Below, one piece after another: positions 17,881-64,000 of a stretch of 64,000 nt of DNA (its first letter is position 1; every line of letters begins with the position of its first letter). Both the position numbers and the translations under genes were made by a program. This stretch comes from Hydractinia symbiolongicarpus (Eukaryota; Cnidaria; Hydrozoa; Anthoathecata; Hydractiniidae): NCBI RefSeq assembly GCF_029227915.1, contig NC_079879.1:23824501-23888500 (forward strand), in the 5' to 3' direction. Under the pieces are notes generated by a model. That model ran no database searches and was not told where the DNA came from. It was given only the letters and a program-made list of their open reading frames with translations.

Positions 17881-17917
17881 AACGTTTGCGCGAAGATGTA
17901 CTCAAAGAAATGTACGT

Positions 17918-17998
17918 GCTGCGATGGCCGAGTGGTTAAGGCGTTTGCCACGAAGTCAAATGGGATATCCCGCACAGGTTCGAATCCTGCTCGCAGCG
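17918..17998 (+). tRNA. tRNA-Ser-like, first in array, probably decayed
   Basis: The anticodon arm is altered (TTTGC-CACGAAG-TCAAA): base 33 is A instead of the near-invariant U and pair 31-39 is broken. T stem has A49-C65. A and B boxes are intact. Confidence 0.6.
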
Positions 17999-18556
17999 CA
18001 GATGAAATGGAAAATGCAATGTGACACTTTTACCTAAAATCAATAGTATCCCACAAAACGCAAATACCAAGATGCAGGATTTGAAAAAGTCGCAAGTAAT
18101 ACACCAGTGCACACATATACACGGCATGCTCCACAAAATTCTACCTAACTTGAATGCCGATAATAGGCTTTGCATTGATATTTCTGGCCACTTGCTTCTT
18201 TAGCTGCAATTAACACATCGGCTGGAATAAATTATAGGAAAGAAGAGGAGAAAGCTATATTTAAACTTTATTCTTTGTTTTTGACATACGTGTTAACAAT
18301 TACATGCTAATTACGCCACAAGCTTTGTTGATTTCACAGGGGTTTGACAGGAGAAACTACGCAACATTTAACATAATACAATTTTTGTTTGAGAGGAAGT
18401 TCTTACCGAAAATATGACACAGTCACATACGGCATGTGTAACAAATGGATGAATACAAACTAGTATGCGACTCCTTTAACAAATTAATAATTGGAAACCT
18501 TTAGCTAGGGCGTGTTTGTAACGCTTGCGCGAAGATGTACTCAAAGATATCTACGT

Positions 18557-18637
18557 GCTGCGATGGCCGAGTGGTTAAGGCGTTTGACTCGATATCAAAT
18601 GGGATATCCCGCGCAGGTTCGAATCCTGTTTGCAGCG
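18557..18637 (+). tRNA. tRNA-Ser(CGA), U37 type
   Basis: Loop is CTCGATA: U instead of purine at position 37. G-U pairs at 6-67 and 49-65. Boxes A and B intact. Confidence 0.75.
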
Positions 18638-19184
18638 CAGTTGAAATGTAAATTGCAATGTGACACTTTTACCTAAAATCAATAGCATCTCTCAAAACGC
18701 TGGTGCTGAGAGGCAAAAGTTGAGAAAGTCGCAAGTAATAGACCAGTGCACACAGCATGCTCCACAGAATTCTATCTAACTTGAATACGGATAATTGGCT
18801 TTGCGTTCAAGTTTCTGGCCATTTGCTTTTTTAGCTTCAATTAATACATCGGCTGGAAAAAAATGCGGGAAAGACAAGGAGAAAGCTAAGTTTAAATTTC
18901 TTTTCTTGTTTTTGACATACGTGTTAATGATTACATGTGAATTACGCCACAAGCTTTGTTGATTTCACATGGGTTGAGAGGAGAAACTACGCAACATTTA
19001 ATATAATGCAAATTTTTTGAGAGAAATTGCTTACCGAAAATATCACACAGTCACATACGGCATGTGTAACAAATGGATGTTTACAAACTAGTATAGGACT
19101 TCTTTACCAATTTAATAATTAGAAACATTTAGCTAGGGCTGGTATGTAACATTTGCGCAAAGATGTGCTCAAAGAATTCTACGT

Positions 19185-19265
19185 GCTGCGATGGCCGAGA
19201 GGTTAAAGCGTTTGACTCGAAATCAAATGGGATATCCCGCACAGGTTCGAATCCTGTTTGCAGCG
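19185..19265 (+). tRNA. tRNA-Ser(CGA), altered D arm
   Basis: D arm reads GAGAGGTTAAAGC: A box changed at one base and D-stem pair 12-23 broken. Rest as reference with a 6-67 G-U. Confidence 0.75.
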
Positions 19266-19815
19266 CAGTTGAAATGTAAATTGCAATGTGACACTTTTAC
19301 CTAAAATCAATAGTATCTCTCAAAACGCAGGTGCTGAGAGGCAAAACTTGAGAAAGTGGCAAGTAATAGACCAGTGCACACAGCGTGCTCCACAGAATTC
19401 TATCTAACTTGAATACGGATAATAGGCTTTGCGTTCAAGTTTCTGGCCATTTTCTTCTTTAGCTTCAATTAACACATCGGCTGGAAGAAACTGCGGGAAA
19501 GAAAGAGGAGAAAGCTGTATTTATGCTTTAGTCCTTGTTTTTGACATACGTGTTAACGATTACATGCGAATTACGCCACAAGCTTTGTTGATTTCTCAGG
19601 GGTTGACAGGAGAAACTACGCAACATTTAACATAATACAATTTTTGTTTGAGAGAAAGTTCTTACCAAAAATATGACACAGTCACATACGGCATGGGTAA
19701 AAAATCGATGAATTTAAACTAATATGCGACTCCTTTAACAAATTAATAATTAGAAACCTTTAGCTAGGGCTGGTTTGTAGCATTTGCGCCAAGATGTACT
19801 CAAAGAATTCTACGT

Positions 19816-19896
19816 GCTGCGATGGCCGAGTGGTTAAGGCGTTTGACTCGAAATCAAATGGGATATCCCGCGCAGGTTCGAATCCTGCTCGCAGCG
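19816..19896 (+). tRNA. tRNA-Ser(CGA), fully paired
   Basis: T stem is GCAGG/CCTGC, so the change at 49 is matched at 65. All stems are Watson-Crick. Confidence 0.93.
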
Positions 19897-20454
19897 CAGA
19901 TGAAATGGAAAATGCAATGTGACACTTTTACCTAAAATCAATAGTATCCCACAAAACGCAAATACCAAGAGGCAGGATTTGAAAAAGTCGCAAGTAATAC
20001 ACCAGTGCACACATATACACGGCATGCTCCACAAAATTCTACCTAACTTGAATGCCGATAATAGTCTTTGCATTGATATTTCTGGCCACTTGCTTCTTTA
20101 GCTGCAATTAACACATCGGCTGGAATAAATTATAGGAAAGAAGAGGAGAAAGCTATATTTAAACTTTATTCTTTGTTTTTGACATACGTGTTAACAATTA
20201 CATGCTAATTACGCCACAAGCTTTGTTGATTTCACAGGGGTTTGACAGGAGAAACTACGCAACATTTAACATAATACAATTTTTGTTTGAGAGGAAGTTC
20301 TTACCGAAAATATGACACAGTCACATACGGCATGTGTAACAAATGGATGAATACAAACTAGTATGCGACTCCTTTAACAAATTAATAATTGGAAACCTTT
20401 AGCTAGGGCGTGTTTGTAACGCTTGCGCGAAGATGTACTCAAAGATATCTACGT

Positions 20455-20535
20455 GCTGCGATGGCCGAGTGGTTAAGGCGTTTGACTCGATATCAAATGG
20501 GATATCCCGCGCAGGTTCGAATCCTGTTTGCAGCG
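20455..20535 (+). tRNA. tRNA-Ser(CGA), U37 type
   Basis: Same as the copy at 18557; second half of a 1270-bp dimer. Confidence 0.75.
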
Positions 20536-21085
20536 CAGTTGAAATGTAAATTGCAATGTGACACTTTTACCTAAAATCAATAGTATCTCTCAAAACGCAG
20601 GTGCTGAGAGGCAAAACTTGAGAAAGTGGCAAGTAATAGACCAGTGCACACAGCGTGCTCCACAGAATTCTATCTAACTTGAATACGGATAATAGGCTTT
20701 GCGTTCAAGTTTCTGGCCATTTTCTTCTTTAGCTTCAATTAACACATCGGCTGGAAGAAACTGCGGGAAAAAAAGAGGAGAAAGCTGTATTTATGCTTTA
20801 GTCCTTGTTTTTGACATACGTGTTAACGATTACATGCGAATTACGCCACAAGCTTTGTTGATTTCTCAGGGGTTGACAGGAGAAACTACGCAACATTTAA
20901 CATAATACAATTTTTGTTTGAGAGAAAGTTCTTACCAAAAATATGACACAGTCACATACGGCATGGGTAAAAAATCGATGAATTTAAACTAATATGCGAC
21001 TCCTTTAACAAATTAATAATTAGAAACCTTTAGCTAGGGCTGGTTTGTAGCATTTGCGCCAAGATGTACTCAAAGAATTCTACGT

Positions 21086-21166
21086 GCTGCGATGGCCGAG
21101 TGGTTAAGGCGTTTGACTCGAAATCAAATGGGATATCCCGCGCAGGTTCGAATCCTGCTCGCAGCG
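21086..21166 (+). tRNA. tRNA-Ser(CGA), fully paired
   Basis: Identical to the copy at 19816, one dimer period (1270 bp) away. Confidence 0.93.
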
Positions 21167-21724
21167 CAGATGAAATGGAAAATGCAATGTGACACTTTTA
21201 CCTAAAATCAATAGTATCCCACAAAACGCAAATACCAAGAGGCAGGATTTGAAAAAGTCGCAAGTAATACACCAGTGCACACATATACACGGCATGCTCC
21301 ACAAAATTCTACCTAACTTGAATGCCGATAATAGTCTTTGCATTGATATTTCTGGCCACTTGCTTCTTTAGCTGCAATTAACACATCGGCTGGAATAAAT
21401 TATAGGAAAGAAGAGGAGAAAGCTATATTTAAACTTTATTCTTTGTTTTTGACATACGTGTTAACAATTACATGCTAATTACGCCACAAGCTTTGTTGAT
21501 TTCACAGGGGTTTGACAGGAGAAACTACGCAACATTTAACATAATACAATTTTTGTTTGAGAGGAAGTTCTTACCGAAAATATGACACAGTCACATACGG
21601 CATGTGTAACAAATGGATGAATACAAACTAGTATGCGACTCCTTTAACAAATTAATAATTGGAAACCTTTAGCTAGGGCGTGTTTGTAACGCTTGCGCGA
21701 AGATGTACTCAAAGATATCTACGT

Positions 21725-21805
21725 GCTGCGATGGCCGAGTGGTTAAGGCGTTTGACTCGATATCAAATGGGATATCCCGCGCAGGTTCGAATCCTGTTTG
21801 CAGCG
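21725..21805 (+). tRNA. tRNA-Ser(CGA), U37 type
   Basis: Identical to the copy at 20455. Confidence 0.75.
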
Positions 21806-22355
21806 CAGTTGAAATGTAAATTGCAATGTGACACTTTTACCTAAAATCAATAGTATCTCTCAAAACGCAGGTGCTGAGAGGCAAAACTTGAGAAAGTGGC
21901 AAGTAATAGACCAGTGCACACAGCGTGCTCCACAGAATTCTATCTAACTTGAATACGGATAATAGGCTTTGCGTTCAAGTTTCTGGCCATTTTCTTCTTT
22001 AGCTTCAATTAACACATCGGCTGGAAGAAACTGCGGGAAAAAAAGAGGAGAAAGCTGTATTTATGCTTTAGTCCTTGTTTTTGACATACGTGTTAACGAT
22101 TACATGCGAATTACGCCACAAGCTTTGTTGATTTCTCAGGGGTTGACAGGAGAAACTACGCAACATTTAACATAATACAATTTTTGTTTGAGAGAAAGTT
22201 CTTACCAAAAATATGACACAGTCACATACGGCATGGGTAAAAAATCGATGAATTTAAACTAATATGCGACTCCTTTAACAAATTAATAATTAGAAACCTT
22301 TAGCTAGGGCTGGTTTGTAGCATTTGCGCCAAGATGTACTCAAAGAATTCTACGT

Positions 22356-22436
22356 GCTGCGATGGCCGAGTGGTTAAGGCGTTTGACTCGAAATCAAATG
22401 GGATATCCCGCGCAGGTTCGAATCCTGCTCGCAGCG
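22356..22436 (+). tRNA. tRNA-Ser(CGA), fully paired
   Basis: Identical to the copy at 19816. Confidence 0.93.
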
Positions 22437-22994
22437 CAGATGAAATGGAAAATGCAATGTGACACTTTTACCTAAAATCAATAGTATCCCACAAAACGCA
22501 AATACCAAGAGGCAGGATTTGAAAAAGTCGCAAGTAATACACCAGTGCACACATATACACGGCATGCTCCACAAAATTCTACCTAACTTGAATGCCGATA
22601 ATAGTCTTTGCATTGATATTTCTGGCCACTTGCTTCTTTAGCTGCAATTAACACATCGGCTGGAATAAATTATAGGAAAGAAGAGGAGAAAGCTATATTT
22701 AAACTTTATTCTTTGTTTTTGACATACGTGTTAACAATTACATGCTAATTACGCCACAAGCTTTGTTGATTTCACAGGGGTTTGACAGGAGAAACTACGC
22801 AACATTTAACATAATACAATTTTTGTTTGAGAGGAAGTTCTTACCGAAAATATGACACAGTCACATACGGCATGTGTAACAAATGGATGAATACAAACTA
22901 GTATGCGACTCCTTTAACAAATTAATAATTGGAAACCTTTAGCTAGGGCGTGTTTGTAACGCTTGCGCGAAGATGTACTCAAAGATATCTACGT

Positions 22995-23075
22995 GCTGCG
23001 ATGGCCGAGTGGTTAAGGCGTTTGACTCGATATCAAATGGGATATCCCGCGCAGGTTCGAATCCTGTTTGCAGCG
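22995..23075 (+). tRNA. tRNA-Ser(CGA), U37 type
   Basis: Identical to the copy at 20455; last of this dimer block. Confidence 0.75.
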
Positions 23076-23625
23076 CAGTTGAAATGTAAATTGCAATGTG
23101 ACACTTTTACCTAAAATCAATAGTATCTCTCAAAACGCAGGTGCTGAGAGGCAAAACTTGAGAAAGTGGCAAGTAATAGAACAGTGCACACAGCGTGCTC
23201 CACAGAATTCTATCTAACTTGAATACGGATAATAGGCTTTGCGTTCAAGTTTCTGGCCATTTTCTTCTTTAGCTTCAATTAACACATCGGCTGGAAGAAA
23301 CTGCGGGAAAAAAAGAGGAGAAAGCTGTATTTATGCTTTAGTCCTTGTTCTTGACATACGTGTTAACGATTACATGCGCATTACGCCACAAGCTTTGTTG
23401 ATTTCTCAGGGGCTGACAGGAGAAACTACGCAACATTTAACATAATACAATTTTTGTTTGAGAGAAAGTTCTTACCAAAAATATGACACAGTCACATACG
23501 GCATGGGTAAAAAATCGATGAATTTAAACTAATATGCGACTCCTTTAACAAATTAATAATTAGAAACCTTTAGCTAGGGCTGGTTTGTAGCATTTGCGCC
23601 AAGATGTACTCAAAGAATTCTACGT

Positions 23626-23706
23626 GCTGCGATGGCCGAGTGGTTAGGGCGTTTGACTCGAAATCAAATGGGATATCCCGCGCAGGTTCGAATCCTGTTC
23701 GCAGCG
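23626..23706 (+). tRNA. tRNA-Ser(CGA), no close terminator
   Basis: D loop has GGTTAGGG (one A to G) and 49-65 is G-U. The downstream T run is TTTC instead of TTTT; the next TTTT is near 23896. Confidence 0.85.
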
Positions 23707-24253
23707 CAGTTGAAATGAAAAATTCAATGCGACAGTTTCACCTAAAATCAATAGTATCCCCCAAAACGCGGGTGCAGAGACGCAAAAGTTGAGAAAGTGG
23801 CAAGTAATAGACCAGTGCACACAGCATGCTCCACAAAATTCTACCTAACTTGAATACTGATAATAGGCCTTGCGTTCAAGTTTCTGGCCATTTGCTTCTT
23901 TTGCTTCAATAAACACATCGGCTGAAAAATTATGGGAAAGAAGAGGATAAAGCTATATTAAAACTTTATTCCTTGTTTTTGACATACGTGTTAATGATTA
24001 CATGTGAATTACGCCACAGGTTTTTTAGATTTCACATGGGATGACAGGAGACACTACGCAACATTTAATATACTGCAATTTTTTTTTGAGAGAAAGTTCT
24101 TACTGAAAATATGGCACATTCACATACAGCATATGTAACAACTGCATATTTACAAAGTAGTATACGACTTCTTTAGCAAATTAATAATTGGAAACCTTTA
24201 GCTAGGGCTGGTTTGTAGCATTTGCGCCAAGATGTACTCAAAGAAATCTACGT

Positions 24254-24334
24254 GCTGCGATGGCCGAGTGGTTAAGGCGTTTGACTCGAAATCAAGTGGT
24301 TTATCCCGCACAGGTTCGAATCCTGTTCGCAGCG
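24254..24334 (+). tRNA. tRNA-Ser(CGA), altered variable arm
   Basis: The variable arm reads GTGGTTTATCCC, weakening the arm stem; 27-43 is U-G. Other stems as reference. Confidence 0.8.
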
Positions 24335-24882
24335 CAGTTAAAATGGAAAATTCAATGTGACACTTTTACCTAAAATCAGTGGTATCCGGCAAAACGCAGG
24401 TGCTGAGAGGCATGATTTGGGAAATTGCAAGTAATAGACCAGTGCACACAGCATGCTCCACAGAATTCTATCTAACTTGAATACGGATAATAGGCTTTGC
24501 GTTCAAGTTTCTGGCCATTTGCTTCTTTAGCTTCAATTAACACATCGGCTGGAAGAAACTGCGGGAAAAAAAGAGGAGAAAGCTGTATTTATGCTTTAGT
24601 CCTTGTTTTTGACATACGTGTTAACGATTACATGCGAATTACGCCACAAGCTTTGTTGATTTCTCAGGGGCTGACAGGAGAAACTACGCAACATTTAACA
24701 TAATACAATTTTTGTTTGAGAGAAAGTTTTACCAAAAATATGACACAGTCACATACGGCATGGGTAAAAAATCGATGAATTTAAACTAATATGCGACTCC
24801 TTTAACAAATTAATAATTAGAAACCTTTAGCTAGGGCTGGTTTGTAGCATTTGCGCCAAGATGTACTCAAAGAATTCTACGT

Positions 24883-24963
24883 GCTGCGATGGCCGAGTGG
24901 TTAAGGCGTTTGACTCGAAATCAAATGGGATATCCCGCGCAGGTTCGAATCCTGTTCGCAGCG
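24883..24963 (+). tRNA. tRNA-Ser(CGA), no close terminator
   Basis: As reference except G49-U65. Downstream TTTC replaces the TTTT. Confidence 0.88.
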
Positions 24964-25510
24964 CAGTTGAAATGAAAAATTCAATGCGACAGTTTCACCT
25001 AAAATCAATAGTATCCCCCAAAACGCGGGTGCAGAGACGCAAAAGTTGAGAAAGTGGCAAGTAATAGACCAGTGCACACAGCATGCTCCACAAAATTCTA
25101 CCTAACTTGAATGCTGATAATAGGCCTTGCGTTCAAGTTTCTGGCCATTTGCTTCTTTTGCTTCAATAAACACATCGGCTGAAAAATTATGGGAAAGAAG
25201 AGGATAAAGCTATATTAAAACTTTATTCCTTGTTTTTGACATACGTGTTAATGATTACATGTGAATTACGCCACAGGTTTTTTAGATTTTACATGGGATG
25301 ACAGTAGACACTACGCAACATTTAATATACTGCAATTTTTTTTTGAGAGAAAGTTCTTACTGAAAATATGGCACATTCACATACAGCATATGTAACAACT
25401 GCATATTTACAAAGTAGTATACGACTTCTTTAGCAAATTAATAATTGGAAACCTTTAGCTAGAGCTGGTTTGTAGCATTTGCGCCAAGATGTACTCAAAG
25501 AAATCTACGT

Positions 25511-25591
25511 GCTGCGATGGCCGAGTGGTTAAGGCGTTGGACTCGAAATCAAATGGTTTATCCCGTACAGGTTCGAATCCTGTTCGCAGCG
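25511..25591 (+). tRNA. tRNA-Ser(CGA), altered variable arm
   Basis: Anticodon stem TTGGA/TCAAA has a G-A mismatch at 29-41. The variable arm is GGTTTATCCC as in the copy at 24254. Confidence 0.75.
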
Positions 25592-26140
25592 CAGTTAAAA
25601 TGGAAAATTCAATGTGACACTTTTACCTAAAATCAGTGGTATCCGGCAAAACGCAGGTGCTGAGAGGCATGATTTGGGAAATTGCAAGTAATAGACCAGT
25701 GCACACAGCATGCTCCACAGAATTCTATCTAACTTGAATACGGATAATAGGCTTTGCGTTCAAGTTTCTGGCCATTTGCTTCTTTAGCTTCAATTAACAC
25801 ATCGGCTGGAAGAAACTGCGGGAAAAAAAGAGGAGAAAGCTGTATTTATGCTTTAGTCCTTGTTTTTGACATACGTGTTAACGATTACATGCGAATTACG
25901 CCACAAGCTCTGTTGATTTCTCAGGGGCTGACAGGAGAAACTACGCAACATTTAACATAATACAATTTTTGTTTGAGAGAAAGTTCTTACCAAAAATATG
26001 ACACAGTCACATACGGCATGGGTAAAAAATCGATGAATTCAAACTAGTATGCGACTCCTTTAACAAATTAATAATTAGAAACCTTTAGCTAGGGCTGGTT
26101 TGTAGCATTTGCGCCAAGATGTACTCAAAGAAATCTACGT

Positions 26141-26221
26141 GCTGCGATGGCCGAGTGGTTAAGGCGTTTGACTCGAAATCAAATGGGATATCCCGCGCAG
26201 GTTCAAATCCTGTTCGCAGCG
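26141..26221 (+). tRNA. tRNA-Ser(CGA), B-box variant
   Basis: T loop TTCAAAT changes G57 to A inside the B box. Downstream TTTC. Anticodon arm as reference. Confidence 0.75.
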
Positions 26222-26768
26222 CAGTTGAAATGAAAAATTCAATGCGACAGTTTCACCTAAAATCAATAGTATCCCCCAAAACGCGGGTGCAGAGACGCAA
26301 AAGTTGAGAAAGTGGCAAGTAATAGACCAGTGCACACAGCATGCTCCACAAAATTCTACCTAACTTGAATACTGATAATAGGCCTTGCGTTCAAGTTTCT
26401 GGCCATTTGCTTCTTTTGCTTCAATAAACACATCGGCTGAAAAATTATGGGAAAGAAGAGGATAAAGCTATATTAAAACTTTATTCCTTGTTTTTGACAT
26501 ACGTGTTAATGATTACATGTGAATTACGCCACAGGTTTTTTAGATTTCACATGGGATGACAGGAGACACTACGCAACATTTAATATACTGAAATTTTTTT
26601 TTGAGAGAAAGTTCTTACTGAAAATATGGCACATTCACATACAGCATATGTAACAACTGCATATTTACAAAGTAGTATACGACTTCTTTAGCAAATTAAT
26701 AATTGGAAACCTTTAGCTAGGGCGTGTTTGTAACGCTTGCGCGAAGATGTACTGAAAAATATCTACGT

Positions 26769-26849
26769 GCTGCGATGGCCGAGTGGTTAAGGCGTTTGAC
26801 TCGAAATCAAATGGGATATCCCGCGTAGGTTCGAATCCTGTTCGCAGCG
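26769..26849 (+). tRNA. tRNA-Ser(CGA), wobble T stem
   Basis: T stem GTAGG/CCTGT has two G-U pairs (49-65, 50-64). Downstream TTTC. The 5' flank reads GTACTGAAAAATATC, a local variant. Confidence 0.78.
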
Positions 26850-27399
26850 CAGTTAAAATGAAAAATTCAATGCGACAGTTTCACCTAAAATCAATAGTAT
26901 CTCTCAAAACGCAAGTGCTGAGAGGCAAAACTTGAGAAAGTGGCAAGTAATAGACCAGTGCACACAGCGTGCTCCACAGAATTCTATATAACTTGAATTT
27001 GGATAATAGGCTTTGCGTTCAAGTTTCTGGCCATTTTCTTCTTTAGCTTCAATTAACACATCGGTTGGAAAAGAATGCGGGAAAGAAGAGGAGAAAGCTA
27101 AGTTTAAATTTTATTCCTTGTTTTTGACATACGTGTTAATGATTATATGTGAATTACGCCACAGGTGTTTTTGCTTTTACATGGGATTACAGGAGAAACT
27201 ACGCAACATTTAACATAATGCAATTTTTGTTTGAGAAAAATTTCTTACCGAAAATATGACACAGTCACATACGGCATGTGTAACAAATGGATGAATATAA
27301 ACTAGTATACGACTCCTTTAACAAATTAATAATTAGAAACCTTTAGCTAGGGCTGGTTCGTATCAATTGCGCAAAGATGTTTCTCATTGAAAACTATGT

Positions 27400-27480
27400 G
27401 CTGTGATGGCTGAGTGGTTAAGGTGTTTGACTCGAAATCAAATGGGATATCCCGCACAGGTTCAAATCATGTTCGCAGTG
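27400..27480 (+). tRNA. tRNA-Ser-like(CGA), degenerate
   Basis: Acceptor GCTGTGA/TCGCAGT has G-U at 1-72 and 5-68. T stem ACAGG/CATGT has a mismatch, and the B box reads GGTTCAAATCA. Probably inactive. Confidence 0.55.
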
Positions 27481-28030
27481 CAGTTGAAATGTAAATTGCA
27501 ATGTGACACTTTTACCTAAAATCATTAGTATCTGTCAAAACGCTGGTGCTGAGAAGCAAAGGTTGAGAAAGTCGCAAGTAATAGACCAGTGCACACAGCA
27601 TGCTCCACGGAATTCAATCTACCTTGAATATGGATAATACGCTTTGTGTTTAAGAATCTGGCCATTTGCTTCTTTAGCTTCAATTAACACATCGGCTGGA
27701 AAAAAATGCGGGAAAGAAAAGGAGAAAGCTAAGTTTAAATTCTTTTTCCTTGTTTTTGACATACGTTTTAATGATTACATGTGCATTACGCCACAGGTTT
27801 TTTTAGATTTCACATGGGATGACAGGAGACACTACGCAACATTTAATATATTGCAATTTTTTTTGAGAGAAAGTTCTTACTGAGAAAATGGCACAGTCAC
27901 ATACGGCATGTGCAACAACTGCATATTTACAAAGTAGTATACGATTTCTTTAACAAATTACTAATTGGAAACCTTTAGCTAGGGCGTGTTTGCAACGTTT
28001 GCGCGAAGATGTACTCAAGGAAATCTACGT

Positions 28031-28111
28031 GCTGCGATGGCCGAGTGGTTAAGGCTTTTGACTCGAAATCAAATGGGATATCCCGCACAGGTTCGAGTCC
28101 TGTTCGCAGCG
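28031..28111 (+). tRNA. tRNA-Ser(CGA)
   Basis: Stems as reference. Base 26 is T and the T loop is TTCGAGT, which still fits the B box consensus. Confidence 0.85.
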
Positions 28112-28658
28112 CAGTTGAAATGGAAAATTCAATGTGTCAGTTTTACCTATAGTCAATAGTATCCCCCAAAACGCTGGTGCACAGAGGCAAAATCTGAGAA
28201 AGTGGCAAGTAATAAACCAGTGCACACAGCATGCTCCACAAAATTCTACCTAACTTGAATACTGATAATAGGCTTTGCGTTCAAGTTTCTGGTCATTTGC
28301 TTCTTTAGCTTCAATTAACACTTCGGCTGGAAAAAATGCGGGAAAGACAAGGAGAAAGCTAAGTTTAATTTTTTTCCTTGTTTTTGACATACGTGGTAAT
28401 GATTACATGTGAATTACGCCACAGGTTTTTAAGATTTCACATGGGATGACAGGAGACACTACTCAACATTTAAGATAATGCAATTTTTTTTTTAGAGAAA
28501 GTTCTTACTGAAAATATGGCACAGTGACATACGGCATGTGTAACAACTGCATATTTACAAAGTAGTATACGACTTCTTTAACAAATTACTAATTGGAAAC
28601 CTTTAGCTAGGGCGCGTTTGTAACGCTTGCGCGAAGATGTACTCAAAGATAGCTACGT

Positions 28659-28739
28659 GCTGCGATGGCCGAGTGGTTAAGGCGTTTGGATCGAAATCAA
28701 ATGGAATATCCCGCACAGGTTCGAATCCTGTTTGCAGCG
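28659..28739 (+). tRNA. tRNA-Ser(CGA), altered anticodon loop
   Basis: Anticodon arm TTTGG-ATCGAAA-TCAAA: A at 32 and a G-U pair at 31-39. Variable arm GGAATATCCC. Confidence 0.75.
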
Positions 28740-29288
28740 CAGTTGAAATGGAAAATTCAATGCGACAGTTTTACCTAAAATCAATAGTATCCCTCAAAAC
28801 CCTGGCGCAGAGAGGCAAAGGTTGAGAAAGTGGCAAGTAATAGACCAGTGCACACAGCATGCTCCACAAAATTTTACCTAACTTAAATGCCGATAGCAGG
28901 CTTTGCATTCATATTTTTAACCACTTACTTCTTTAGCTTCAATTAACACACCGGCTGGAAAAAAATGCAGGAAAGAAGAGGAGAAAGCTATATTTAAACT
29001 TTAGTCTTTGTTTTTGACATACGTGTCAATGATTACATGCCAATTATGCCACAAGCTGTGTTGTTTCAAATGGGTTAACAGGAGAAACTACGCAACATTG
29101 AACATAATGCAATCTTTGTTTGAGAGAAAGTTCTTATCGAAAGTATGACACAGTCACATACGGCATGTGCAACAAATGGATGAATACAAACTAGTATACG
29201 ACTCCTTTAACAAATTAATAATTAGAAACCTTTAGCTAGGGCTGGTTTGTAACATTTGCACGAAGATGTTTCTCAATGAAAACTATGG

Positions 29289-29972: not shown

Positions 29973-30001
29973 CAGTTGAAATGTAAAATGCAATGTACCA
30001 C

Positions 30002-52316: not shown

Positions 52317-52864
52317 CAGTTGAAATGGAAAATTCAATGTGACAGTTTTACCTAAAATCAATAGTATCCCCCAAAACGCGGGTGCAGAGAGGCAATATTT
52401 GAGAAAGTGGCAAGTAATAGACCAGCGCACACAGCATGCTCCACAAAGTTCTACCTAACTTGAATGCTGATAATAGGCTTTGCCTTCAAGCTTCTGGCCA
52501 TTTGCTTCTTTAGCTTCAATTAACACATCGGCTGAAATAAATTATGGGAAAGAAGAGGAGAAAGCTATATTTAAACTTTAGTCTTTGTTTTTGACATACG
52601 TGTCAATGATTACATGCGAATTACGCCACAAGCTGTGTTGATTTCACATGGGTTGACAGGAGAAACTACGCAACATTTAACATAATGCAATTTTTGTTTG
52701 AGAGAAAGTTCTTACCAAAAAAATGACACAGTCACCTACGGCATCTGCAACAAATGGATGAATACAACTAGTATACGAATCCTTTAACAAATTGTTAATT
52801 AGAAACCTTTAGCTAGGGCGTGTTTGTAACGTTTGAGCGAAGATGTACTCAAAGAAATCTACGT

Positions 52865-52945
52865 GCTGCGATGGCCGAGTGGTTAAGGCGTTTGACTCGA
52901 AATCAAATGGGATATCCCGCACTGGTTCGAAGCCTGTTCGCAGCG
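52865..52945 (+). tRNA. tRNA-Ser(CGA), T-arm variant
   Basis: T stem ACTGG/CCTGT has U-U at 51-63 and the loop ends AAG (B box GGTTCGAAGCC). Confidence 0.72.
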
Positions 52946-53467
52946 CAGTTGAAATGGAAAATTCGATGTGACAGTTTTACCTAAAGTCAGTAGTATCCCG
53001 CAAAACGCAGGTGCTGAGAGGCATGATTTGAGAAAGTCGCAAGTAATAGACCAGTGCACACAGCATGCTCCAAAAAAATTCTACCTAACTTGAATACTGA
53101 TAATAGGCTTTGCGTTTAAACAATTAACACATCGGCCGAAAGAAAATGCGGGAAAGAAAAGGAGAAAGCTAAGTTTAAATTTTATTCTTGGCTTTTGACA
53201 TACGTGTCAATGACTACATGCGAATTACGCCACAAGCTTTGTTGATTTCACATGGGTTGACAGGAGAAACTACGCAACATTTAATATAATGCAAATTTTT
53301 TGAGAGACAGTTCTTACCGAAAAACTGGCACAGTCACATACCACATGTGCAACAAATGGATTTTTACAAACTAGTATAGGACTTCTTTAACCAATTACTA
53401 ATTAGAAACCTTTAGCTAGAGCTGGTTTGTAACGTTTCCGCAAAGATGTACTCAAAGAAATCTACGT

Positions 53468-53548
53468 GCTGCAATGGCCGAGTGGTTAAGGCGTTTGACT
53501 CAAAATCAAATGGGATATCCCGCACAGGTTCGAATCCTGTTTGCAGCG
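53468..53548 (+). tRNA. tRNA-Ser body with anticodon CAA, fully paired
   Basis: Acceptor GCTGCAA/TTGCAGC carries matched changes at 6 and 67. T and anticodon stems are perfect and both promoter boxes intact. Loop CTCAAAA gives CAA (Leu UUG). Seryl-tRNA synthetases generally do not read the anticodon, so it could carry serine. Confidence 0.85.
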
Positions 53549-54097
53549 CAGTTGAAATGTAAAATGCAATGTGGCACTTTTACCTAAAATCAGTAGTATC
53601 CCGCAAAACGCAGGTGCTGAGAGGCATGATTTGAGAAAGTCGCAAGTAATAGACCAGTGCACACAGCATGCTCCACAAAATTCTACCTAACTTGAATGCC
53701 GATAACAGGCTTTGCGTTTAAGTTTCTGGCCATTTGCTTCTTTAGCTTCAATTAACACATCGGCTGAAAAAAAATGCGGGAAAAAACAGGAGAAAGTTAA
53801 GTTTGAATTTTATTCCTTGTTTTTGACATACGTGTTAATGATTACATGTGAATTACGCCACATTCATTTTAGATTTCACATGGGATGACAGGAGAAACTA
53901 CGCAACATTTACTATAATGCAGCTTTTTTTTGAAAGACAGTTCTTACCAAAAAACTGGCACAGTCACATACCACATGTGCAACAAATGGATTTTTACAAA
54001 CTAGTACAGGACTTCTTTAACCAATTACTAATTAGAAACCTTTAGCTAGAGCTGGTTTGTAACGTTTCCGCAAAGATGTACTCAAAGAAATCTACGT

Positions 54098-54178
54098 GCT
54101 GCAATGGCCGAGTGGTTAAGGCGTTTGACTCAAAATCAAATTGGATATCCCGCACTGGTTCGAATCCAGTTCGCAGCG
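54098..54178 (+). tRNA. tRNA-Ser body with anticodon CAA, compensated T stem
   Basis: Same loop as 53468. T stem ACTGG/CCAGT is matched at 51-63. The acceptor has A-C at 6-67 and the variable arm is TGGATATCCC. Confidence 0.78.
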
Positions 54179-54727
54179 CAGTTGAAATGTAAAATGCAAT
54201 GTGGCACTTTTACCTAAAATCAGTAGTATCCCGCAAAACGCAGGTGCTGAGAGGCATGATTTGAGAAAGTCGCAAGTAATAGACCAGTGCACACAGCATG
54301 CTCCACAAAATTCTACCTAACTTGAATGCCGATAACAGGCTTTGCGTTTAAGTTTCTGGCCATTTGCTTCTTTAGCTTCAATTAACACATCGGCTGAAAA
54401 AAAATGCGGGAAAAAACAGGAGAAAGTTAAGTTTGAATTTTATTCCTTGTTTTTGACATACGTGTTAATGATTACATGTGAATTACGCCACAGGCATTTT
54501 ATATTTCACATGGGATGACAAGAGAAACTACGCAACATTTACTTTAATGCAGCTTTTTTTTGAGAGACAGTTCTTACCAAAAAACTGGCACAGTCACATA
54601 CCACATGTGCAACAAATGGATTTTTACAAACTAGTACAGGACTTCTTTAACCAATTACTAATTAGAAACCTTTAGCTAGAGCTGGTTTGTAACGTTTCCG
54701 CAAAGATGTACTCAAAGAAATCTACGT

Positions 54728-54808
54728 GCTGCGATGGCCGAGTGGTTAGGGCGTTTGACTCGAAATCAAATGGGATATCCCGCACTGGTTCGAATCCTGT
54801 TCGCAGCG
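54728..54808 (+). tRNA. tRNA-Ser(CGA), T-stem mismatch
   Basis: T stem ACTGG/CCTGT (51-63 U-U) and GGTTAGGG in the D loop. The B box sequence is intact. Confidence 0.78.
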
Positions 54809-55355
54809 CAGTTGAAATGGAAAATTCCATGTGACACTTTTACCTAAAATCAGTAGTATCCCCCAAAACGCAAATACCAAGAGGCAATATTTGAGAAAGT
54901 GGCAAGTAATAGACCAGTGCACACAGCATGCTCCACAAAATTCTACCTAACTTGAATGCTGATAATAGGCTTTGCCTTCAAGCTTCTAGCCATTTGCTTC
55001 TTAGCTTCAATTAACACATCGGCTGAAATAAATTATGGGAAAGAAGAGGAGAAAGCTATATTTAAACTTTAGTCTTTGTTTTTGACATACGTGTCAATGA
55101 TTACATGCGAATTACGTCACAAGCTGTGTTGATTTCACATGGGTTGACAGGAGAAACTACGCAACATTTAACATAATGCAATTTTTGTTTGAGAGAAAGT
55201 TCTTACCAAAAAAATGACACAGTCACATACGGCATGTGCAACAAATGGATGAATACAACTAGTATACGAATCCTTTAACAAATTAATAATTAGAAACCTT
55301 TAGCTAGGGCGTGTTTGTAACGTTTGAGCGAAGATGTACTCAAAGAAATCTACGT

Positions 55356-55436
55356 GCTGCGATGGCCGAGTGGTTAAGGCGTTTGACTCGAAATCAAATG
55401 GGATATCCCGCACTGGTTCGAAGCCTGTTCGCAGCG
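55356..55436 (+). tRNA. tRNA-Ser(CGA), T-arm variant
   Basis: Identical to the copy at 52865. Confidence 0.72.
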
Positions 55437-55960
55437 CAGTTGAAATGGAAAATTCGATGTGACAGATTTACCTAAAATCAGTAGTATCCCGCAAAACGCA
55501 GGTGCTGAGAGGCATGATTTGAGAAAGTGGCAAGTAATAGACCAGTGCACACAGCATGCTCCACCTAGTTCTACCTAACTTGAATGCCGATAACAGGTGT
55601 TGCGTTTAAGCAATTAACACATCGGCCGAAAGAAAATGCGGGAAAGAAAAGGAGAAAGCTAAGTTTAAATTTTATTCTTGGCTTTTGACATACGTGTCAA
55701 TGACTACATGCAAATTACGCCACAAGCTTCGTTGATTTCACAGGGGTTGACAGGAGAAACTACGCAACATTTAACATAATGCAATTTTTGTTAGAGAGAA
55801 AGTTCTTACTGAAAATATGGCACAGTCACATACGGCATGTGTAACAACTGCATATTTACAAAGTAGTATACGACTTCTTTAACAAATTACTAATAGGAAA
55901 CCTTTAGCTAGGGCGTGTTTGTAACGTTTGCGCGAAGATGTTTCTCAATAAAAAATATGG

Positions 55961-56041
55961 TCTGTGATGGCTGAGTGGTTAAGGCGTTTGACTCGAAATC
56001 AAATGGGATATTCTGCAAAGGTTCGAATCCTGTTCGCAGCG
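55961..56041 (+). tRNA. tRNA-Ser-like(CGA), TCTGTGA subfamily
   Basis: Same as 50349; 5' flank slightly changed (CAATAAAAAATATGG). Confidence 0.5.
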
Positions 56042-56590
56042 CAGTTGAAATGTAAAATGCAATGTGACACCTTTACCTAAAATCAATATGATCTCTCAAA
56101 TCGCTGGTGCTGAGAGGCAAAAGTTGAGAAAGTCGCAAGTAATAGACCAGTGCACGCAGCATGCTCCACAGAATTCTATCTAAATTGAATACGGATAATA
56201 TGCTTTGCGTTCAAGTTCCTGGCCATTTGCTTCTTTAGCTTCAATTAATACATCGGCTGGAAAAAAATGCGGGAAAGACAAGGAGAAAGCTAAGTTTGAA
56301 TTTTATTCCTTGCTTTTGACATACGTGTTAATGATTACATGTGAATTACGCCACATTCATTTTAGATTTCACATGGGATGACAGAAGAAACTACGCAACA
56401 TTTACTATAATGCAGCTTTTTTTTGAGAGACATTTCTTACCAAAAAACTGGCACAGTCATGTACCACATGTGCAACAAATGGATTTTTACAAACTAGTAT
56501 AGGACTTTTTTTACAAATTACTAATTAGAAACCTATAGCTAGAGCTGGTTTGTAACGTTTACGCAAAGATGTACTCAAAGTAATCTACGT

Positions 56591-56671
56591 GCTGCGATGG
56601 CTGAGTGGTTAAGGCGTGTGACTCGAAATCATATGGGATATCCCGCGCAGGTTCGAGTCCTGTTTGCAGCG
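56591..56671 (+). tRNA. tRNA-Ser(CGA), TGTGA-stem type
   Basis: As 47196 but with A38 (loop CTCGAAA). Confidence 0.77.
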
Positions 56672-57221
56672 CAGTTGAAATGGAGAATGCAATGTACGAC
56701 TTTTACCTAAAATCAGTAGTATCTCTCAAAACGCAGGTGCTGAGAGGCAAAATTTGAGAAAGCTGCAAGTAATAGACCAGGGCACACAGCATGCTCCACA
56801 GAATTCTATCTAACTTGAAAACGGATAATAGGCTTTGCGTTCAAGTTTCTGGCCATTTGCTTCTGTAGCTTCAATTAATACATCGGCTGGAAAAAAATGC
56901 GGGAAAGACAACGAGAAAGCTAAGTTTAAGTTTTTTTCCTTGTTTTTGACATACGTGTTAATGATTACATGCGAATTACGCCACAAGGCTTGTTGATTTC
57001 ACAGGGGTTGACAGGAGAAACTACGCAACATTTAACATAATGCAATTTTTGTTAGAGAGAAAGTTCTTACTGAAAATATGGCACAGTCACATACGGCATG
57101 TATAACAACTGCATATTTACAAAGTAGTATACGACTTCTTTAACAAATTACTAATAGGACACCTTTAGCTAGGGCGTGTTTGTAACGTTTGCGCGAAGAT
57201 GTTTCTCAGTGAAAACTATGG

Positions 57222-57302
57222 TCTGTGATGGCTGAGTGGTTAAGGCGTTTGACTCGAAATCAAATGGGATATTCTGCAAAGGTTCGAATCCTGTTCGCAG
57301 CG
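57222..57302 (+). tRNA. tRNA-Ser-like(CGA), TCTGTGA subfamily
   Basis: Same as 50349. Confidence 0.5.
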
Positions 57303-57851
57303 CAGTTGAAATGTAAAATGCAATGTGACACTTTTACCTAAAATCAATATGATCTCTCAAATCGCTGGTGCTGAGAGGCAAAAGTTGAGAAAGTCGCAAG
57401 TAATAGACCAGTGCACGCAGCATGCTCCACAGAATTCTATCTAAATTGAATACGGATAATAGGCTTTGCGTTCAAGTTTCTGGCCATTTGCTTCTTCAGC
57501 TTCAATTAATACATCGGCTGGAAAAAATTGCGGGAAAGACAAGGAGAAAGCTAAGTTTGAATTTTATTCCTTGCTTTTGACATACGTGTTAATGATTACA
57601 TGTGAATTACGCCACATTCATTTTAGATTTCACATGGGATGACAGAAGAAACTACGCAACATTTACTATAATGCAGCTTTTTTTTGAGAGACATTTCTTA
57701 CCAAAAAACTGGCACAGTCATGTACCACATGTGCAACAAATGGATTTTTACAAACTAGTATAGGACTTCTTTAACAAATTACTAATTAGAAACCTTTAGT
57801 TAAAGCTGGTTTGTAACGTTTCCGCAAAGATGTACTCAAAGAAATCCACGT

Positions 57852-57932
57852 GCTGCGATGGCCGAGTGGTTAAGGCGTTATACTCGAAATCAAATGGGAT
57901 ATCCCGCACAGGTTCGAATCCTGTTCGCAGCG
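57852..57932 (+). tRNA. tRNA-Ser(CGA), broken anticodon stem
   Basis: Anticodon stem TTATA/TCAAA has two mismatches (29-41, 30-40). All else as reference. Confidence 0.68.
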
Positions 57933-58481
57933 CAGTTGAAATGGAAAATTCAATGTGACAGTTTTACCTAAAATCAATAGTATCCCCCAAAACGCGGGTG
58001 CAGAGAGGCAATATTTGAGAAAGTGGCAAGTAATAGACCAGTGCACACAGCATGCTCCACAAATTTCTACCTAACTTGAATACTGATAATAGGCTTTGCG
58101 TTCAAGCTTCTGGCCATTTGCTTCTTTAGCTTCAATTAACACATCAGCTGGATTAAATTATGGGAAAGAAGAGGAGAAAGCTATATTTAAAATTTAGTCT
58201 TTGTTTTTGACATACGTGTCAATGATTACATGTGAATTACGCCACATTCATTTTAGATTTCACATGGGATGACAGAAGAAACTACGCAACACTTACTATA
58301 ATGCAGCTTTTTTTTGAGAGACAGTTCTTACCGAAAAACTGGCACAGTCACATACAACATGTGCAACAAATGAATTTTTACAAACTAGTATAGGACTTCT
58401 TTAACAAGTTACTAATAGGAAACCTTTAGCTAGAGCTGGTTTGTAACGTTTCCGCAAAGATGTACTCAAAGAAATCTAAGT

Positions 58482-58562
58482 GCTGCGATGGCCGAGTGGT
58501 TAAGGCGTTTGACTCGAAATCAAATGGGATATCCCGCACAGGTTCGAATCCTGTTCGCAGCG
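58482..58562 (+). tRNA. tRNA-Ser(CGA), reference type
   Basis: Identical to 29892; the 5' flank ends CTAAGT instead of CTACGT. Confidence 0.95.
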
Positions 58563-59113
58563 CAGTTGAAATGTAAATTGCAATGTGACACTTTTACCTA
58601 AAATCAATAGTATCTCTAAAAACGCAGGTGCTGAGAGGCAATATTTGAGAAAGCCGCAAGTAATAGACCAGTGCACACAGCATGCTCCACAGAATTCTAT
58701 CTAACTTGAAAACGGATAATAGGCTTTGCGTTCAAGTTTCTGGCCATTAGCTTCTTTTGCTTCAATTAACACATCGGCTGGAAGAAAATGCGGGAAAAAA
58801 AGAGGAGAAAGCTGTATTTATGCTTTAGTCCTTGTTTTTGACATACGTGTTAATGATTACATGCGAATTACGCCACAAGGTTTGTTGATTTCACAGGGGT
58901 TGACAGGAGAAACTACGCAACATTTAACATAATGCAATTTTTGTTAGAGAGAAAGTTCTTACTGAAAATATGGCACAGTCACATACGGCATGTGTAACAA
59001 CTGCATATTTACAAAGTAGTATACGACTTCTTTAACAAGTTACTAATAGGAAACCTTTAGCTGGGGCGTGTTTGTAACGTTTGCGCAAAGATGTTTCTCA
59101 ATGAAAACTATGG

Positions 59114-59194
59114 TCTGTGATGGCTGAGTGGTTAAGGCGTTTGACTCGAAATCAAATGGGATATTCTGCAAAGGTTCGAATCCTGTTCGCAGCG
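59114..59194 (+). tRNA. tRNA-Ser-like(CGA), TCTGTGA subfamily
   Basis: Same as 50349. The TTTT downstream is kept (CCCTTTTACC). Confidence 0.5.
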
Positions 59195-59743
59195 CAGTTG
59201 AAATGTAAAATGCAATGTGACCCTTTTACCTAAAATCAATAGGATCTCTCAAATCGCTGGTGCTGAGAGGCAAAAGTTGAGAAAGTCGCAAGTAATAGAC
59301 CAGTGCACGCAGCATGCTCCACAGAATTCTATCTAAATTGAATACGGATAATAGGCTTTGCGTTCAAGTTTCTGGCCATTTGCTTCTTTAGCTTCAATTA
59401 ATACATCGGCTGGAAAAAAATGCGGGAAAGACAAGGAGAAAGCTAAGTTTGAATTTTATTCCTTGCTTTTGACATACGTGTTAATGATTACATGTGAATT
59501 ACGCCACAGGCATTTTAGATTACACATGGGACGACAGGAGAAACTACGCAACATTTACTATAATGCAGCTTTTTTTTGAGAGACAGTTCTTACCGAAAAA
59601 CTGGCACAGTCACATACCACATGTGCAACAAATGGATTTTTACAAACTAGTATAGGACTTCTTTAACCAATTACTAATTAGAAACCTTTAGCTGGAGCTG
59701 GTTTGTAACGTTTCCGCAAAGATGTACTCAAAGAAATCTTCGT

Positions 59744-59824
59744 GCTGCGATGGCCGAGTGGTTAAGGCGTTTGACTGGAAACCATATGGGATATCCCGTG
59801 CAGGTTCGAGTCCTGTTTGCAGCG
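59744..59824 (+). tRNA. tRNA-Ser with anticodon GGA, mismatched stem
   Basis: Loop CTGGAAA gives GGA, which would read UCC and UCU (still serine). Anticodon stem TTTGA/CCATA has mismatches at 28-42 and 31-39. T loop TTCGAGT. Confidence 0.65.
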
Positions 59825-60371
59825 CAGTTGAAATGGAGAATGCAATGTACCACTTTTACCTAAAATCAGTAGTATCCCGCAAAAGGCAGGTGCTGAGAGG
59901 CAAAATTTGAGAAAGTTGCAAGTAATAGACCAGTGCACACAGCATGCTCCACAAAATTTTACCTAACTTGAATGCCGATAGCAGGCTTTGCATTCATATT
60001 TCTAACCACTTGCTTCTTTAGCTTCAATTAACACACCGGCTGGAAAAAATGCAGGAAAGAGGAGGAGAAAGCTAAATTTAAACTCTATTCCTTGGCTCTG
60101 ACATACGTGTTAATGATTACATGTGAATTACGTCACAGGCTTTTAGAATTCACATGGGATGACAGGAGAAACTACGCAACATTTACTTTAATGCAGCTTT
60201 GTTTTGAGAGACAGTTCTTACCGAAAAACTAGCACAGTCACATACCGCATGTGCAACAAATGGATTTTTACAAACTAGTATAGGACTTCTTTAACAAATT
60301 ACTAATTAGAAACCTTTAGTTAAAGCTGGTTTGTAACGTTTCCGCAAAGATGTACTCAAAGAAATCCACGT

Positions 60372-60452
60372 GCTGCGATGGCCGAGTGGTTAAGGCGTTT
60401 GACTCGAAATCAAATGGGATATCCCGCACAGGTTCGAATCCTGTTCGCAGCG
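60372..60452 (+). tRNA. tRNA-Ser(CGA), reference type
   Basis: Identical to 29892. Confidence 0.95.
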
Positions 60453-61001
60453 CAGTTGAAATGGAAAATTCAATGTGACAGTTTTACCTAAAATCAATAG
60501 TATCCCCCAAAACGCGGGTGCAGAGAGGCAATATTTGAGAAAGTGGCAAGTAATAGACCAGTGCACACAGCATGCTCCACAAATTTCTACCTAACTTGAA
60601 TACTGATAATAGGCTTTGCGTTCAAGCTTCTGGCCATTTGCTTCTTTAGCTTCAATTAACACATCAGCTGGATTAAATTATGGGAAAGAAGAGGAGAAAG
60701 CTATATTTAAAATTTAGTCTTTGTTTTTGACATACGTGTCAATGATTACATGCCAATTATGCCACAAGCTGTGTTGATTTCACATGGGTTAACAGGAGAA
60801 ACTACGCAACATTTAACATAATGCAATCTTTGTTTGAGAGAAAGTTCTTATCGAAAGTATGACACATTCACATACGGCATGTGTAACAAATGGATGAATA
60901 CAAACTAGTATACGACTCCTTTACCAAGTTAATAATTAGAAACCTTTAGCTGGAGCTGGTTTGTAACGTTTCCGCAAAGATGTACTCAAAGAAATCTACG
61001 T

Positions 61002-61082
61002 GCTGCGATGGCCGAGTGGTTAAGGCGTTTGACTCGAAACCATATGGGATATCCCGCGCAGGTTCGAGTCCTGTTTGCAGCG
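61002..61082 (+). tRNA. tRNA-Ser(CGA), mismatched anticodon stem
   Basis: Anticodon stem TTTGA/CCATA has two mismatches; loop CTCGAAA. T loop TTCGAGT. Confidence 0.68.
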
Positions 61083-61630
61083 CAGTTGAAATGGAGAATG
61101 CAATGTACCACTTTTACCTAAAATCAGTAGTATCCCGCAAAAGGCAGGTGCTGAGAGGCAAAATTTGAGAAAGTTGCAAGTAATAGACCAGTGCACACAG
61201 CATGATCCACAAAATTTTACCTAACTTGAATGCCGATAGCAGGCTTTGCATTCATATTTCTAACCACTTGCTTCTTTAGCTTCAATTAACACACCGGCTG
61301 GAAAAAAATGCAGGAAAGAGGAGGAGAAAGCTAAATTTAAACTCTATTCCTTGTCTCTGACATACGTGTTAATGATTACATGTGAATTACGTCACAGGCT
61401 TTTAGAATTCACATGGGGTGACAGGAGAAACTACGCAACATTTACTTTAATGCAGCTTTGTTTTAAGAGACAGTTCTTACCGAAAAACTAGCACAGTCCC
61501 ATACCGCATGTGCAACAAATGGATTTTTACAAACTAGTATAGGACTTCTTTAACAAATTACTAATTAGAAACCTTTAGTTAAAGCTGGTTTGTAACGTTT
61601 CCGCAAAGATGTACTCAAAGAAATCCACGT

Positions 61631-61711
61631 GCTGCGATGGCCGAGTGGTTAAGGCGTTTGACTCGAAATCAAATGGGATATCCCGCACAGGTTCGAATCC
61701 TGTTCGCAGCG
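61631..61711 (+). tRNA. tRNA-Ser(CGA), reference type
   Basis: Identical to 29892. Confidence 0.95.
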
Positions 61712-62261
61712 CAGTTGAAATGGAAAATTCAATGTGACAGTTTTACCTAAAATCAATAGTATCCCCCAAAACGCGGGTGCAGAGAGGCAATATTTGAGAA
61801 AGTGGCAAGTAATAGACCAGTGCACACAGCATGCTCCACAAATTTCTACCTAACTTGAATACTGATAATAGGCTTTGCGTTCAAGCTTCTGGCCATTTGC
61901 TTCTTTAGCTTCAATTAACACATCGGCTGGATTAAATTATGGGAAAGAAGAGGAGAAAGCTATATTTAAAATTTAGTCTTTGTTTTTGACATACGTGTCA
62001 ATGATTACATGCCAAATATGCCACAAGCTGTGTTGATTTCACATGGGTTAACAGGAGAAACTACGCAACATTTAACATAATGCAATCTTTGTTTGAGAGA
62101 AAGTTCTTATCGAAAGTATGACACATTCACATACGGCATGTGTAACAAATGGATGAATACAAACTAGTATACGACTCCTTTAACAAATTAATAATTAGAA
62201 AACTTTAGCTAGGGCTGGTTTGTAACATTTGCGCGAAGATGTTTCTCAAAGAAAACTATGG

Positions 62262-62342
62262 TCTGTGATGGCTGAGTGGTTAAGGCGTTTGACTCGAAAT
62301 CAAATGGGATATCCCGCAAAGGTTCGAATCCTGTTCGCAGCG
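62262..62342 (+). tRNA. tRNA-Ser-like(CGA), TCTGTGA subfamily
   Basis: Broken 1-72 pair and T-stem mismatch, but the variable arm is the intact GGGATATCCC. Confidence 0.55.
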
Positions 62343-62892
62343 CAGTTGAAATGTAAAATGCAATGTGGCACTTTTACCTAAAATCAGTAGTATCCCGCAA
62401 AACGCAGGTGCTAAGAGGCATGATTTGAGAAAGTCGCAAGTAATAGACCAGTGCACACAGCATGCTCCACAAAATTCTACCTAACTTGAATGCCGATAAC
62501 AGGCTTTGCGTTTAAGTTTCTGGCCATTTGCTTCTTTAGCTTCAATTAACACATCGGCTGAAAAAAAATGCGGGAAAAAACAGGAGAAAGTTAAGTTTGA
62601 ATTTTATTCTTTGTTTTTGACATACGTGTTAATGATTACATGTGAATTACGCCACAGGCATTTTAGATTTCACATGGGATGACAAGAGAAACTACGCAAC
62701 ATTTACTATAATGCAGCTTTTTTTTTGAGAGACAGTTCTTACCAAAAAACTGGCACAGTCACATACCACATGTGCAACAAATGGATTTTTACAAACTGGT
62801 ACAGGACTTCTTTAACCAATTACTAATTAGAAACCTTTAGCTAGAGCTGGTTTGTAACGTTTCCGCAAAGATGTACTCAAAGAAATCCACGT

Positions 62893-62973
62893 GCTGCGAT
62901 GGCCGAGTGGTTAAGGCGTTTGACTCGAAATCAAATGGGATATCCCGCACAGGTTCGAATCCTGTTCGCAGCG
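62893..62973 (+). tRNA. tRNA-Ser(CGA), reference type
   Basis: Identical to 29892. Confidence 0.95.
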
Positions 62974-63522
62974 CAGTTGAAATGGAAAATTCAATGTGAC
63001 AGTTTTACCTAAAATCAATAGTATCCCCCAAAACGCGGGTGCAGAGAGGCAATATTTGAGAAAGTGGCAAGTAATAGACCAGTGCACACAGCATGCTCCA
63101 CAAATTTCTACCTAACTTGAATACTGATAATAGGCTTTGCGTTCAAGCTTCTGGCCATTTGCTTCTTTAGCTTCAATTAACACATCAGCTGGATTAAATT
63201 ATGGGAAAGAAGAGGAGAAAGCTATATTTAAAATTTAGTCTTTGTTTTTGACATACGTGTCAATGATTACATGCCAATTATGCCACAAGCTGTGTTGATT
63301 TCACATGGGTTAACAGGAGAAACTACGCAACATTTAACATAATGCAATCTTTGTTTGAGAGAAAGTTCTTATCGAAAGTATGACACATTCACATACGGCA
63401 TGTGTAACAAATGGATGAATACAAACTAGTATACGACTCCTTTACCAAGTTAATAATTAGAAACCTTTAGCTGGAGATGGTTTGTAACGTTTCCGCAAAG
63501 ATGTACTCAAAGAAATCTACGT

Positions 63523-63603
63523 GCTGCGATGGCCGAGTGGTTAAGGCGTTTGACTCGAAACCATATGGGATATCCCGCGCAGGTTCGAGTCCTGTATGCA
63601 GCG
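63523..63603 (+). tRNA. tRNA-Ser(CGA), mismatched anticodon stem
   Basis: As 61002, with a further acceptor mismatch at 7-66 (ATGCAGC). Last tRNA in the window; its spacer runs to the end. Confidence 0.63.
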
Positions 63604-64000
63604 CAGTTGAAATGGAGAATGCAATGTACCACTTTTACCTAAAATCAGTAGTATCCCGCAAAAGGCAGGTGCTGAGAGGCAAAATTTGAGAAAGTTGCAA
63701 GTAATAGACCAGTGCACACAGCATGATCCACAAAATTTTACCTAACTTGAATGCCGATAGCAGGCTTTGCATTCATATTTCTAACCACTTGCTTCTTTAG
63801 CTTCAATTAACACACCGGCTGGAAAAAAATGCAGGAAAGAGGAGGAGAAAGCTAAATTTAAAATCTATTCCTTGTCTCTGACATACGTGTTAATGATTAC
63901 ATGTGAATTACGTCACAGGCTTTTAGAATTCACATGGGATGACAGGAGAAACTACGCAACATTTACTTTAATGCAGCTTTGTTTTAAGAGACAGTTCTTA

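Follow-up and report, generated by a model that had tools for sequence, protein, structure and literature searches.

Why would an animal genome keep 162 copies of one serine tRNA gene in a single run, and is such a run a set of working genes or a repeat that merely happens to contain them? The question arises in a stretch of 64,000 nucleotides from the hydrozoan Hydractinia symbiolongicarpus (NC_079879.1, positions 23,824,501 to 23,888,500 of the forward strand), here called the window, which lies on the 35.0-Mb scaffold C5 and holds part of a tandem array of tRNA-Ser(CGA) genes. Tandem tRNA arrays have already been published for this species, and in their account the genome authors describe such arrays as unusual in an animal and of unclear significance (PMC11067881). 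A first interpretation of the window from its letters alone, the sequence-only reading, had offered abundant supply of one tRNA in some tissue, a TFIIIC-bound chromatin domain, or a tRNA-derived satellite as possible explanations. The analysis described below makes it probable that this array, one of several tRNA arrays in H. symbiolongicarpus, is a redundant set of tRNA genes that evolves in concert and whose copies are subject to purifying selection. What is added to the published picture is a spacer family found at a single locus only, growth by block duplication, and a tRNA that appears to be kept by selection while the rest of the unit drifts.

Extent and integrity of the array

The sequence examined comprised the window together with 200 kb to its right and 20 kb to its left, and coordinates beyond 64,000 continue the numbering of the window. 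Within the window ARAGORN called 72 tRNA genes, all on the forward strand (68 Ser-CGA, 3 typed as Leu-CAA and 1 Ser-GGA), and a BLAST search with one array copy as query located 74 tRNA-Ser positions, consisting of 73 full or nearly full copies from 17918 to 63523 and one fragment of 23 nt. The array continues past the window to a total of 162 copies over about 101.5 kb, arranged head to tail with a median spacing of 630 bp; the last full copy lies at 119322 (C5:23943822), the array ends at 119403, and tRNA fragments at 36218 and 76053 are excluded from the count. The sequence-only reading had recognized 74 positions in units of about 630 bp over at least 46 kb, all of which is confirmed, the window cutting through a longer array, and its start at 17881 was approximately right, with the first tRNA at 17918 and recognizable spacer from 17742. 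Non-array sequence flanks the array on both sides. Decayed relatives of the unit occur past its end, at 121370 and 132272-132930, and no further unit matches were found in the left 20 kb, beyond traces at the array edge, or in the remainder of the right 200 kb. Tandem tRNA arrays of Hydractinia are recognized by tens to hundreds of similar copies, spaced roughly evenly and with spacers that are alike, and the present array has these features.

A check against Rfam RF00005 (cut-off 29 bits) was passed by all 73 window copies, with scores from 33.9 to 67.8 bits, and together with the ARAGORN and BLAST results this establishes a long and real tRNA-Ser array. The copies show the sequence properties of functional tRNA-Ser, namely the Rfam score, a long variable arm and the anticodon CGA, the last of these in 69 of the 73 window copies, as had been anticipated (CAA in three, GGA in one); over the whole array 155 copies carry CGA, three CAA, three GGA and one TAA. 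Integrity was scored over 23 stem pairs, and a run of four T (T4) within 50 nt was taken as terminator-like. All 23 pairs are present in 38 of the 73 window copies and the T4 run in 65, with 31 copies combining both with a CGA anticodon; across the array the combination is found in 66 of 162. The sequence-only reading credited many copies with perfect stems, both Pol III boxes and a terminator, and this is true of part of them. Two stretches in the example copy of Table 1, whose positions were read from the sequence, are what we take to be box A and box B.

Evidence for selection on the tRNA

Units could be aligned for 158 of the 162 copies, those at 35584, 75425, 118575 and 119322 being left aside as irregular or without a next copy. 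Sites of the tRNA have a mean variability of 0.068, those of the spacer one of 0.125, and the lowest 82-nt window free of tRNA has 0.088, so that within the unit the tRNA varies least; none of 10,000 base-matched draws of spacer was as low. The difference persists when each subtype is represented once (55 units; 0.069 against 0.128), and the box A-like and box B-like stretches are lower still, at 0.040 and 0.046. The copies have not, therefore, been a purely neutral satellite, and conservation above the rate of the spacer, on which the sequence-only reading depended, is borne out.

The stems reveal what kind of variant is affected. Distinct pair-breaking variants number 41, against 46.6 expected from the spacer, and distinct pair-keeping variants 13, against 13.5; since these counts are near expectation, mutation input to the stems is not much reduced. 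The summed frequency of pair-breaking variants, however, is 1.13 where 3.16 is expected, about one third, whereas that of pair-keeping variants is 1.26 against 1.04. In 10,000 draws of base-matched spacer columns, a breaking frequency this low came up 3 times and a pair-keeping share this high 13 times. Broken pairs average 0.84 per copy, below all 200 replicates of a null with a mean of 2.98. As to allele classes, singletons are equal in tRNA and spacer and common alleles are fewer in the tRNA (0.333 against 0.573 per site; Fisher P 0.032 for singletons versus common alleles, tRNA versus deep spacer). At two pairs both sides have changed: 28:42 is T-A in 137 units, G-T in 15, G-C in 2 and T-T in 4, and 57:73 is A-T in 106, G-T in 43, G-C in 8 and A-C in 1. 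Since stem-breaking variants stay rare, tRNA has probably been produced from a good share of the copies in the course of evolution.

Outside the tRNA, spacer blocks at unit positions 176-187, 430-441 and 606-617 are as little variable as the tRNA itself, position 606 lying 25 nt upstream of the next tRNA. These blocks are possibly upstream elements, or they may reflect chance.

Growth and genomic distribution

Mean pairwise identity among the aligned units is 0.883, an average difference of about 12%, and the units fall into 80 clusters at 2%, with some of them identical. No adjacent aligned units reach 99% identity, yet the closest relative of a unit has a median identity of 99.4%, and blocks of up to 10 units are repeated 19 aligned units apart. 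Near-identical relatives at a distance are the pattern expected of multi-unit block duplication by unequal exchange.

The genome (480,894,487 bases in 76 contigs) was searched for other members of the spacer family. With a 701-nt piece of the left flank as query, the last part of it unit spacer, 88 places matched, the piece itself among them; all lie within C5:23.842-23.957 Mb, and 14 of the 17 candidates were scored. A 344-bp query of tRNA plus spacer gave 40 scored matches out of 40 at this locus, among 766 candidates, a search that was not exhaustive. Within the scored candidates there was thus no sign of copies at several genomic places, as a dispersed tRNA-derived satellite would have, and a spreading satellite is not supported. 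Of the earlier proposal that a satellite spreads by unequal exchange, spread within the array is supported, as block duplications, and dispersal elsewhere is not, the spacer family being found only here among the scored candidates.

Other tRNA arrays do occur in this genome. A genome-wide Rfam tRNA search, in which 63 matches were scored among 49,105 candidates, placed all 63 on scaffold C3, where spacings of about 1,305 bp are frequent among them. Four short stretches of C3 were typed: three carry Lys(TTT), Ala(AGC), Met(CAT), Ala(TGC) and Asp(GTC), with Leu(TAG) also present in two of the three, and the fourth, of 200 bases, has one Lys(TTT) gene. Two adjacent units of about 1,305 bp are 97.9% identical. 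At C3:8.380-8.446 Mb and elsewhere on C3 such units have five or six tRNA genes each, with Met on the opposite strand. With multi-gene arrays on C3 and the single-gene serine array on C5, it is characteristic of this genome to have tRNA arrays, whether the unit holds one gene or several.

Weighing the explanations

Several observations weigh against selection on the copies. At least one pair is broken in 85 of the 162 copies, and 21 have no T4 run within 50 nt. Shuffling the variable columns within the tRNA gives 0.88 broken pairs per copy, against the 0.84 observed (P 0.37), and on the spacer tree events per site are nearly equal in tRNA and spacer (3.16 and 3.40). This near-equality, together with a degenerate pair-keeping null (standard deviation 0), led to the tree-based count being dropped as a test of selection in favour of the allele-frequency tests above. 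The 12-nt terminator block at unit position 113 is within the lowest 1.3% of spacer windows, but its conservation was discarded as evidence, as other spacer blocks, such as that at unit position 176, vary no more than it does or even less. Divergence of the tRNA is nearly flat with respect to that of the spacer, and in close unit pairs the tRNA part (unit positions 1-81) is 2 to 4 times more different than the rest. From these two patterns it would seem that exchange between units acts on the tRNA part separately from its spacer. Such exchange could lower tRNA variability without selection; by itself, however, it would not make only stem-breaking variants rare. Mutation raised by transcription in the tRNA was considered and is not supported, singletons over the 158 units being 0.321 per site in the tRNA and 0.303 in the spacer, although among the 50 closest pairs the figures are 0.160 and 0.086.

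The imperfection of about half of the copies, the lack of significance of the column shuffle and the excess of tRNA differences between near-identical units would fit a decaying tRNA-derived satellite, formerly functional and now neutral, in which similarity is maintained by exchange only and the tRNA part is a hotspot of gene conversion; most tRNA differences within the 50 closest pairs are alleles that other units also have (25, against 13 singletons). We consider this unlikely, as rarity is limited to variants that break stems and does not extend to those that keep pairs, and as the tRNA has as many singletons as the spacer with fewer common alleles. An array that exists to supply some tissue with tRNA-Ser(CGA) in very great quantity would be consistent with the 66 complete copies, but so specialised a supply seems very improbable. 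Much the same doubt attaches to a chromatin domain or boundary, in which tRNA promoters would bind TFIIIC and organise the locus: the low variability of the two box-like stretches, and of some spacer blocks as well, fits this idea, but the stems outside the boxes are also kept, which would be needless in a mere binding site. That a few units were expanded by the assembly, the outcome that would have undone the sequence-only reading, is very unlikely. The array, at about 101 kb, does exceed the read N50 of 13.2 kb of assembly HSymV2.0, made from HiFi reads and Hi-C (PMC10411563), and some units are identical; most are nevertheless distinguishable, the array is embedded in a 35-Mb scaffold that continues as non-array sequence past both of its ends, and the independently made draft of H. 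echinata is also described as having tRNA arrays (PMC11067881).

A redundant array under selection thus remains the probable explanation, and the history that it implies would run as follows. A tRNA-Ser(CGA) gene, together with some 550 bp of its flanks, would have been repeated head to tail and would have grown to 162 copies by unequal exchange, including that of multi-unit blocks, with the tRNA part apparently exchanged separately from the spacer; the patterns are read from the sequence, and the mechanism is what we infer from them. New variants enter tRNA and spacer at about the same rate, and stem-breaking ones remain rare. The simplest role to assume is redundant provision of serine tRNA, and an ordinary supply of this kind, tolerating many decayed copies, is the likely one. 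With units about 12% apart, selection on individual redundant tRNA genes becomes a question that can be asked inside one genome, and the allele-frequency tests indicate that it has acted on individual copies; through the many marker variants, expression could also be traced directly to particular copies.

Recoded copies and the left flank

Seryl-tRNA synthetase is not known to read the anticodon. Further copies with the leucine anticodon CAA, besides the one in Table 1, are found in the window at 48458 and 54098, and the single TAA copy, at 68530, has all tested pairs present and one T-loop base missing. The GGA copies, which are still serine, lie at 59744, 98833 and 116685, and two of them have further changes in common. 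It is a most improbable suggestion that selection maintains the array as a reservoir, removing stem-breaking variants while serine-type bodies with leucine anticodons persist (CAA in three and TAA in one of 162), the fully paired and best-scoring window copy of Table 1 among them. Were recoded copies expressed and charged by seryl-tRNA synthetase, serine would be placed at leucine codons, and the tolerated level of mistranslation would be set by the dynamics of the array.

To the left of the array, an intronless open reading frame of 434 codons, measured from stop to stop, occupies 13594-14898. Its matches in the protein collection include one at 93% identity and four at 36-37%, and a Pfam search of five left-flank reading frames, this one included, found none that belongs to a family at E values of up to 1. 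Short tandem repeats of 25 and 17 bp lie at 12039-12108.

Table 1. Features of the array and its left edge, in window coordinates
Feature	Position	Strand	Details
Window part of the tRNA-Ser(CGA) array	17918..64000	+	73 full copies; units mostly 602-639 bp
Partial unit at left edge, 5' spacer of first copy	17742..17917	+	90% identity to unit consensus
Older decayed trace of unit spacer	17471..17615	+	74% identity
Example of an intact copy	19816..19897	+	67.2 bits; box A-like 19823-19834, box B-like 19875-19885, T4 run (terminator-like) 19926-19929
Local 405-bp duplication within one unit	35838..36644	+	Leaves tRNA fragment 36218-36240 (23 nt)
CAA (leucine) anticodon in a serine-type body	53468..53549	+	23/23 pairs, including the G6A/C75T double change; 67.8 bits, best Rfam score in the window

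Comparison with known systems

The closest counterparts are the tandem noncoding RNA arrays described for Hydractinia, which include tRNA arrays in the same species (PMC11067881). The main text of that paper describes copies as nearly identical or highly similar, whereas the present units average 88% identity, and it does not list the tRNA-Ser(CGA) isoacceptor. Entamoeba likewise has tandem tRNA genes with a role described as unclear, and its mixed-unit arrays resemble the units of about 1,305 bp on C3 (PMC2652664). According to that description, Entamoeba units have up to five tRNA genes with short tandem repeats between them, are mostly uniform, and showed no clear pseudogenes; in the present array each unit has a single gene, and imperfect copies are numerous. 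Clusters of fifty and more tRNA genes are reported for teleosts and for Nematostella, also a cnidarian, by Bermudez-Santana et al. (PMC2888827), where adjacent genes in Nematostella usually belong to different isoacceptor families, unlike those seen here. The tandem tRNA repeat at human 1q23.3 consists of GC-rich units of 7.3 kb, with 9-43 per allele, bound by CTCF, through which the repeat is proposed to act in chromatin organisation (PMC4041453). The present array differs in having AT-rich units of 630 bp with one gene each. It is similar to the human repeat, as compared there with mouse, in that the tRNA is conserved and most of the unit is not.

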